Shown one piece after another: positions 1,581 through 3,727 of a stretch of DNA of 34,627 nt. Source of the stretch: Bdellovibrionales bacterium (GTDB taxonomy: Bacteria; Bdellovibrionota; Bdellovibrionia; Bdellovibrionales; UBA1609); NCBI GenBank assembly GCA_023301025.1, contig JALZUR010000011.1:1-34627 (forward strand), in the 5' to 3' direction. The notes beneath the pieces were generated by a model. That model was given only the letters and a program-made list of their open reading frames with translations. It was not told the DNA's origin and did not search any database. Position 1 is the stretch's first letter; each line of letters opens with the position of its first letter. A program made the translations under genes and the position numbers.

Positions 1581-2783
1581 TTACAGCCATCTTTCATAGA
1601 CGTTGATCCAGTCATTGATGTTGACGTTTTGCGGGTCTAGGGAATGCATTGTCAACGCTAGTGGAAAAGACTTTTGCGAAATAAGACCCTCTTGTCTTCT
1701 AACTCCTCTTTTTGAGAACTCTTCAAAGCTTAAAAGTTGAGGTAATATTCTTAAGGCCTGTTCAATTTGTGTGACTTCAACTTTAAAAGTTCCAAGTTCA
1801 GTTTTATAAAACTCTTGAACGTCATCTTTTTTGATCCACTCCATAAGGCTTTCTTCATTAAAATTAATTTTTAAAGCTTTTATCAAAGATAAAGTTATGA
1901 TTCCAAAAAGTTCAGTTGGTTCTAATGAAAGTCTAAAGTAGTGAGGGCTAGTACCTAGCCATTTATAAAATTCTCTTTTTTCATCTGTTGTTTTTAATAT
2001 TTTCATTAATGTTGGCAAACAGGTTTCTAGAATGCCTAAGTCTTCGAGTTTTATAAAAGCCTCAGAATTTGACTTTAAGCGCACAAGTTTAAGCCACTCT
2101 TCTCGTCGTCTTGGAAGGGGTGTGAACTTAAGTTCATCTTTAAATTCTGTAAGACCATTTAAAAGATTAGGCTTCATGGTTAAGCCAATCTTTGTTGCAA
2201 AACGAATGGCTCTTAAAATTCTAATTGGATCTTCAGGCAAGCGGTCGTCAGGGGAGCCAATTAGCTTTAACCAACCTTCTTGCATGTCCTTTAGTCCACC
2301 AGTGTGATCGATAATAATTTGTTTAACTGGATCAAAGAATAAAGCATTACAGGTAAAGTCTCTTCTAAAAGCGTCTTCTTTAGGAGATCCAAAAACATTA
2401 TCACTTTCAAGCACATCTTCATTTGTTTGAACAGTTTTAGGGTTTTTACGAAAGGTTGAAACTTCATACTGCTGATCTTTGTGTCTAACTAAAACAAGTC
2501 TAAACCTTCTGCCAATAATATAAGAGTTTTTAATCAGTCTCTTTATTTGTCTAGGTCTTGCTGTAGTTGAAATATCAAAGTCTTTTGGGTCTAAACCCCT
2601 TAAGAGATCTCTAACAGATCCACCTACAATGTAAGTGGTGTGACCTCTTTCTTGAAGCTTTTTAGTTATTTCTAAAGCACGATCATCCATATGCTCAGGG
2701 CTTAGCTTTAGAAAATTTAGTTCATCTTCAATATCTTTTTGAGTGTAAACAGTTTTAAAAGAGGATTCTGATGCTGAAGAGAT
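1581..2783 (-). CDS. pcnB: PcnB-like poly(A) polymerase / CCA-adding family nucleotidyltransferase, probable ATC start
   Basis: This class II polymerase-beta nucleotidyltransferase adds A tails (or CCA) to RNA 3' ends. Visible landmarks, numbered from the ATC start, are the GGSVRD loop (54-59), the metal-binding DFD (68-70) and the RRDF block (140-143) followed by an EDPIRILRAIRF helix. The GRRFRL motif in the head favours the bacterial PAP I subgroup over pure CCA enzymes. The first ATG is at 2690, but the frame stays open upstream to 2831, and those residues extend the family-like segment before the catalytic head (LSPEH joins the helix starting MDDRALEI). No ATG, GTG or TTG lies in that extension. 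A consensus AAGGAG at 2797-2792 (minus) precedes an in-frame ATC at 2783-2781 by 8 bases. I therefore place the start there, giving 400 residues; the fallback is ATG 2690 (369 residues) with a poor site. Confidence 0.8.
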   Translation of the reverse strand: MSSASESSFKTVYTQKDIEDELNFLKLSPEHMDDRALEITKKLQERGHTTYIVGGSVRDLLRGLDPKDFDISTTARPRQIKRLIKNSYIIGRRFRLVLVRHKDQQYEVSTFRKNPKTVQTNEDVLESDNVFGSPKEDAFRRDFTCNALFFDPVKQIIIDHTGGLKDMQEGWLKLIGSPDDRLPEDPIRILRAIRFATKIGLTMKPNLLNGLTEFKDELKFTPLPRRREEWLKLVRLKSNSEAFIKLEDLGILETCLPTLMKILKTTDEKREFYKWLGTSPHYFRLSLEPTELFGIITLSLIKALKINFNEESLMEWIKKDDVQEFYKTELGTFKVEVTQIEQALRILPQLLSFEEFSKRGVRRQEGLISQKSFPLALTMHSLDPQNVNINDWINVYERWL

Positions 2784-2791
2784 AAAAGAGT

Positions 2792-2797
2792 CTCCTT
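2792..2797 (-). promoter_or_regulatory. Strong Shine-Dalgarno site serving an ATC start codon
   Basis: AAGGAG on the minus strand, 8 bases (ACTCTTTT) before the in-frame ATC at 2783-2781 of the pcnB-like gene. The ATG at 2690 has only a GAG-like remnant upstream. This site is the main reason for the upstream start choice. Confidence 0.55.
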
Positions 2798-2911
2798 GGT
2801 TCTTCTTTGTCGTAAATAACTTTAAAAAGTATTAGTTCTAAATTTCTTTTAAAATTGTAAAATAAAACTCTGTACTATTTATTATACAAAATTTATGTGT
2901 TAGTAAACTCT

Positions 2912-3727
2912 ATGTTTAAAACAATAAACGGTCATCACGTAAAAATTCACTCAGATGAAGAAACTCATAATCACTCATCTCGTCCAAAGCTTGTTTTTAT
3001 TCATGGTTTACTTGGCAACTTATTAAATTGGTCAGGTATTGCACAAACATATACTTCCGATTTTGATATTCTCACTTACGATTTAAGGGGGCATGGTAAA
3101 ACGGGATATTTAACGAAAGATTATGAGCCTGAAGTTTTTGCAGAAGATTTAATTGGTGTGTTAGATGAGCTTAAATGGACTCATGTAATAGCGGTTGGTC
3201 ACTCACTTGGGGCTAGGATTCTTTTTTGCGCAGGTTCTAAGTATCCTAGTAGGTTTTCTAAACTTGTTATTGAAGACATTGGACCTAATAAAACTACAGA
3301 AAGCTCAATGAAAACCTTTAATATGATTAACTATGTTCCAACACCTTTTAAGACGAGATCTGAAGCAAGAGACTTTTTTATGCAAAACTTTCAACCAAAA
3401 TATGGAAAGACTCTTTCTGATTATATGTATAGCAATTTAAATAGAAAAAACGATTCAAGTTTTGATTGGAGATTTGATAAACCAGGTGTAATAAAATGCT
3501 TAGAAATTGGACAAGAAAGAGATTTTTGGAGTGAGTATAAGGACTTAAAGCAAGAGCATTTGGTTTTAAGGGGTGAAAACTCTGAGCATCTTACTAAAGA
3601 TGTTTTAACTGAAATGATAAATCTTAACCCTATGGCCAAAACAAAAGAGATTTCAGGAGCGGGCCATTGGGTTCACTTTGACCAAAGGGTCTCTTTTGTG
3701 AAAGAACTAAATAGCTTTATATATTAA
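2912..3727 (+). CDS. Alpha/beta hydrolase, YbfF/MenH-like esterase
   Basis: This is a cytoplasmic serine hydrolase of the alpha/beta fold, without a signal peptide. From the ATG at 2912 it has 271 residues. The oxyanion-hole segment FIHGLLGN (29-36), the nucleophile elbow GHSLGA with Ser98 and the C-terminal GAGHWVH with His252 are all present. An EDIGP segment puts Asp122 24 residues after the nucleophile, the same spacing as Ser89-Asp113 recalled for E. coli YbfF, and so marks the likely acid. The natural substrate is unknown; YbfF-type enzymes act on short acyl esters and thioesters. A GTG at 2897 is an alternative start; neither has a clear ribosome binding site. The gene ends 8 bases before the DEAD-box helicase and probably shares its transcript. 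Confidence 0.8.
   Translation: MFKTINGHHVKIHSDEETHNHSSRPKLVFIHGLLGNLLNWSGIAQTYTSDFDILTYDLRGHGKTGYLTKDYEPEVFAEDLIGVLDELKWTHVIAVGHSLGARILFCAGSKYPSRFSKLVIEDIGPNKTTESSMKTFNMINYVPTPFKTRSEARDFFMQNFQPKYGKTLSDYMYSNLNRKNDSSFDWRFDKPGVIKCLEIGQERDFWSEYKDLKQEHLVLRGENSEHLTKDVLTEMINLNPMAKTKEISGAGHWVHFDQRVSFVKELNSFIY

Follow-up and report, generated by a model that had tools for sequence, protein, structure and literature searches.

A likely AUC start codon for a PcnB-like gene in an uncultured Bdellovibrio-like bacterium and apparently recurrent AUU/AUC starts in its genome

The window (the whole stretch of 34,627 nucleotides that was analysed) stems from an uncultured Bdellovibrio-like bacterium and contains a gene for a poly(A) polymerase-like protein next to a divergent alpha/beta-hydrolase gene (Table 1). 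The product passed the cut-offs for the nucleotidyltransferase head PF01743 (106.9 bits, cut-off 23, match beginning at residue 50 of the 400-residue product) and the RNA-binding domain PF12627 (26.9 bits, cut-off 22), and E. coli poly(A) polymerase I (PAP I; 3aqm, E 2.9e-48) is the closest match among solved structures. NCBIfam TIGR01942 (pcnB) was by far the best family model, yet its 257.3 bits stayed under the curated cut-off of 305.65, and we therefore call the gene PcnB-like. A second, distant gene of the PolyA_pol family is located on C33 of the same genome and could be the CCA-adding enzyme. The genome is the only one in its genus, and the nearest family member is ~50% identical; two scans of genome contigs for close relatives gave none above ~46% identity, and a search of plasmids gave none. 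Most of the relatives used for comparison come from metagenome-assembled Bdellovibrionales genomes, with Bdellovibrio, Bdellovibrionales, or Pseudobdellovibrionaceae as the record name. The genome of the window is itself a 55-contig draft, in which a single wrong base is possible.

Table 1. Features at the 5' end of the PcnB-like gene and in its surroundings (window coordinates).
Feature	Position	Strand	Remark
PcnB-like nucleotidyltransferase, proposed CDS	1581..2783	-	400 codons from ATC 2783, fMet at first position
First in-frame ATG	2688..2690	-	aligns with I of conserved W-I-D; read as internal Met
KLSPEH codons directly above ATG 2690	2691..2708	-	match conserved N-terminal block of relatives
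ATG in +1 frame	2723..2725	-	a start only given the loss of one base right behind it; read by eye
ATT, rival start without Shine-Dalgarno sequence	2730..2732	-	in frame, at -35 from VGG
ATC, most likely start codon	2781..2783	-	52 residues before V of VGGSVRD
Shine-Dalgarno AAGGAG	2792..2797	-	8 nt before ATC; spacing within range of the genome's other Shine-Dalgarno sequences
Divergent alpha/beta-hydrolase gene	2897..3727	+	start in ORF list GTG 2897; ATG at 2912; bounds the upstream region

The PcnB-like frame, which ends at position 1581, is preceded by a TAA (2834-2832) and then runs through 47 open codons (2831-2691) before it reaches its first ATG (2690-2688). An earlier note on this DNA had claimed that none of these 47 codons is ATG, GTG, or TTG, and this is exactly what the sequence contains; the AAGGAG hexamer and the in-frame ATC, separated by 8 nt (2791-2784), also lie precisely where that note had placed them. 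An open 47-codon frame without canonical start arises in ~1% of Markov sequences, an AUH codon behind a Shine-Dalgarno (SD) match of at least 6 nt at a distance of 5-10 nt in 0.85% of Markov sequences with the same dinucleotide make-up, and the same pair plus an open frame free of canonical starts in 0.73%. Among the AUH codons of the frame, only AUC 2783 has an SD. RNA structure around this SD is weaker than in shuffled sequences (z +1.6), which points to an accessible site and gives no sign of a structured leader. A scan for promoter consensus sequences upstream of the gene returned no match.

In the relatives, the N-terminus consists of a short variable stretch followed by the block x-L-[HSN]-x-x-[WF]-I-D. 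The window's KLSPEHM(DD) aligns without gaps to KLSPEYI (L186), LLSPEWI (L009), and NLSPKWI (L007), and also to the form.LHxDWI, and its frame offers no canonical start able to encode this conserved N-terminus. Translation must consequently begin above ~2708, in a part of the frame that has no canonical start. An automatic annotator would call ATG 2690, the first ATG, GTG, or TTG in frame, which gives a protein of 369 residues with a complete catalytic head domain. The block above it would then be untranslated, however, although KLSPEHM and KLSPEYI match residue by residue, which is not expected of untranslated codons; moreover, none of the relatives examined starts as far down, and neither SD nor promoter box precedes this ATG. 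These alignments make it very improbable that translation starts at ATG 2690, and the gene almost certainly begins above it. The earlier note had described the whole extension as family-like, which holds only for the last six to eight codons above ATG 2690; the ~25 codons from the ATC downward have no detectable similarity to the relatives.

Of the codons above the conserved block, the AUC behind the SD is the best candidate, as previously proposed, and we consider it the likely start on the combined sequence evidence. The stretch from the ATC to 2733 has a mean codon log-odds of +0.19, which is coding-like and within the top 6% of open intergenic stretches, while the codons above the ATC are not coding-like (-0.09); with 17 codons, codon usage between ATC and 2733 counts as weak evidence. 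A start at the AUC places 52 residues before VGG, and similarly long N-termini are found in L006/L175 and L185/L233, with ATG at -50 and -54. Against the AUC speak the ~25 residues after it, which are not conserved, and the position of the start in most relatives, ~15-20 residues further down. A search for homology between the stretch ISSASESSFKTVYTQKDIEDEL and the relatives found none, and an initial likeness of TQK to the VTQKP of some relatives was lost on alignment.

Two other starts below the AUC would give an N-terminus closer to the usual length. The in-frame AUU at 2732-2730 is situated nine residues above the conserved L-S block and at -35 from VGG, the usual Bdellovibrionales start being at ~-34; it has no SD, a feature that pcnB of the relatives generally lacks as well, and is preceded at a distance of 9 nt by TACACT, a weak -10-like hexamer. 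However, the best score for a whole promoter at this position is only 6/12, leaderless or SD-less initiation at a non-AUG codon should have a very low efficiency (as deduced from PMC2268962), and the SD before the ATC would be left without explanation, which makes this AUU an improbable start. Alternatively, one base might be missing just after the +1-frame ATG at 2725, either as a polymorphism or as an assembly error, and a conventional ATG would then be the true start and give an N-terminus of the usual family length (cf. MKNKPYLHKDFI, L022). Such an indel would have to fall in a short run of an otherwise intact 416-codon frame and would reduce the AAGGAG-ATC pair to coincidence, whereas the frame from ATC to 2733 looks coding and another gene of the genome has the same kind of AUH start where its relatives have ATG, without any indel. 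We thus regard a lost base as unlikely, too.

The starts of pcnB in ~50 Bdellovibrionales relatives are ATG or GTG (or TTG), usually 28-40 codons before VGG, and AUC was present in none of the relatives compared. Judged by this comparison, the AUC is lineage-specific, and the notion that a rare AU-type start is a conserved trait of pcnB has to be abandoned. The relatives differ from the window in a further respect. An SD of at least 4 nt precedes only 3 of 54 Bdellovibrionales pcnB starts compared to 87 of 199 (44%) other genes on the same loci (Fisher p=2e-8, uncorrected for relatedness). Instead, a -10-like hexamer ending 6-9 nt before the start is found in 49% of the relatives, compared to 13-17% of other genes. 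A whole promoter with at least 9/12 matches precedes the start in 26%, compared to 1.5-5% of other genes. These promoters just before pcnB are sigma-70-like, e.g. TTTGAC...CATTATGCAAGAGTG (L180) and CTATACTGCCGACTGAATG (L196) in the L174-L226 set. The missing SD and the -10 box 6-9 nt before the start make the pcnB mRNAs of the relatives look leaderless, with transcription probably beginning at the start codon or a few bases upstream. The window's pcnB at the ATC does not have this arrangement. Neither an AUC at pcnB nor a leaderless pcnB in Bdellovibrionales was found reported in the open-licence literature.

The AUU, AUC, or AUA start of infC (IF3), autoregulated by IF3, is the classical rare start of this factor. 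In the genome of the window, infC also has an AUC behind an SD (TAAGGAGG-6-ATC; full reading ggattaaggaggacgtgtATCgcacgc), and the infC loci examined in the family (L034-L063) have AUU or AUC behind an SD, from which we conclude that AUC can initiate in this genome. Nothing unusual was seen in IF3 or the initiator tRNA that might account for relaxed initiation: the C1:A72 mismatch and three G-C pairs are present in the initiator tRNA, and IF3 looks ordinary.

Further AUU and AUC starts were sought in a 1.09-Mb sample taken as stretches, ~54% of the genome with between 865 and 910 ORFs, according to the length cut-off applied. Apart from spurious cases, just three genes in this sample, pcnB, infC, and a cysK-like gene, combine an AUH codon behind an SD of 6 nt or more with a first canonical start well downstream. 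When calibrated on 200 kb of E. coli K-12, the AUH-plus-SD scan missed both infC and pcnB and yielded two false matches, which were followed by a canonical start after 6-19 codons. Taken by itself, the scan is therefore neither complete nor specific, and weight was given to cases in which the canonical start lies inside a conserved domain. One of them is the cysK/cystathionine beta-synthase-like gene (L079:3964 = G000:C17:3964, +), where AAGGAG-7-ATT is the apparent start, the relatives examined have ATG at or a few codons from the place of the ATT, and 40 codons separate the ATT from the next canonical start, which falls within the PALP domain. Its ATT overlaps the stop of the preceding ORF (ATTAA), which suggests coupled re-initiation at the AUU. 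In a gene for an integral membrane protein resembling a CTP-transferase or dolichol kinase (L107:2767 = G000:C25:2767, +), a name read by eye as a Pfam search of the product gave no match, the frame opens one codon before an ATT with AAGGA 8 nt upstream, the conserved block LHLARKIWH follows directly, and no ATG, GTG, or TTG precedes this block. The genome thus appears, from these two genes, to have at least two further well-constrained AUU starts, and beginning genes at AUU or AUC seems to be a minor but recurring practice in the window's lineage.

Less constrained candidates were also encountered. An Rsm22-like gene (PF09243; L098:11694-12773, G000:C20, +) directly after an HU/IHF-like gene has its first canonical start at codon 230, with a candidate ATT overlapping the upstream TAG (ATTAG) and an ATC shortly after. 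The signal peptide KSHKIHKSFIILTLTFITVFFQNC of a lipoprotein-like ORF (L115:15629, G000:C33, -) would be complete only if translation began at an ATC, whose SD is weak (TAAGG). In G031, the genome of the nearest family member, a SrkA-like kinase (L156:10060, -) and a RecJ-like exonuclease (L167:15873, +), both names being assigned by eye, look as if they began at ATC behind AAGGA/AGGAG; their first canonical starts lie 18 and 31 codons deeper in the frame.

The apparent use of AUU in other, unrelated genes speaks against a mechanism specific to pcnB, and the AUC might be tolerated drift rather than regulation, in a lineage that accepts AUU or AUC in a number of genes, a reading that is compatible with the AUC being the start and to which we give an even chance. 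It is favoured by the half-genome sample, with AUU starts in the cysK-like and CTP-transferase-like genes and candidates in the Rsm22-like gene and the lipoprotein, and by the lack of conservation of the AUC at pcnB. On the other hand, only a handful of genes have AUH starts, and two of them, infC and pcnB, are the E. coli genes with the same trait (PMC9410913), although this might be coincidence.

E. coli pcnB starts at ATT, as previously asserted and as read directly in its sequence (accgaggtgtactATTTTTACC); for the AUU start, PMC9410913 and PMC13009471 cite Binns and Masters 2002. Both genes belong to the same enzyme family and have an AU-type start behind an SD, but the window has AUC instead of AUU and belongs to a distant lineage. 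Common descent of the two rare starts is unsupported because the relatives of the window have ATG, GTG, or TTG. With infC, the PcnB-like gene shares an AUC behind an SD (a strong one at infC) within one genome, while the rare start is kept across the family at infC and not at the window's pcnB. In Staphylococcus aureus, infC, cvfC1, and ccpN start at AUU or AUA behind extended SDs, with reporter yields below those of AUG (PMC13009471). There, too, a good SD directs an AUH start, but these are other genes, their starts are conserved among staphylococci and not lineage-specific as here, and the SD of the window comprises 6 nt and is not extended. Leaderless mRNAs (PMC2268962) resemble the present case through the leaderless-looking pcnB of the relatives, with the window's pcnB apparently having a leader and an SD, and we connect the two by inference.

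Given an AUC start, transcription would begin in the ~130-nt gap to the divergent hydrolase gene, AAGGAG would recruit the ribosome on a leadered mRNA, the initiator tRNA would decode AUC 2783-2781 as fMet, and ATG 2690 would be an internal methionine. The mispairing between AUC and the anticodon of the initiator tRNA should lead IF3 to discard a large share of the initiation complexes, and we propose that enzyme yield would stay low for this reason and depend on the level of IF3, in the same way as for infC in this genome. According to the discussion in PMC2268962, IF3 acts against non-canonical starts and leaderless mRNAs alike, so that IF3-sensitive initiation may, as a prediction, be a shared theme. 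Poly(A) polymerase of Bdellovibrionales might be held low in this manner by changing means, i.e. by a leaderless, SD-less mRNA in most genera and by SD plus AUC here, in parallel to the AUU of E. coli; we consider this doubtful. The idea that a rare start serves as a conserved limit on poly(A) polymerase is only partly supported.

For annotation, a restriction to ATG, GTG, and TTG would, given these starts, lose conserved residues of the PcnB-like protein and 40 codons of the cysK-like enzyme. If the AUC is indeed the start, infC and pcnB, the known AUU-start genes of E. coli, would share an AU-type start once more in a distant lineage, and the need for a poorly initiated poly(A) polymerase would, if this is true, become testable by comparison.
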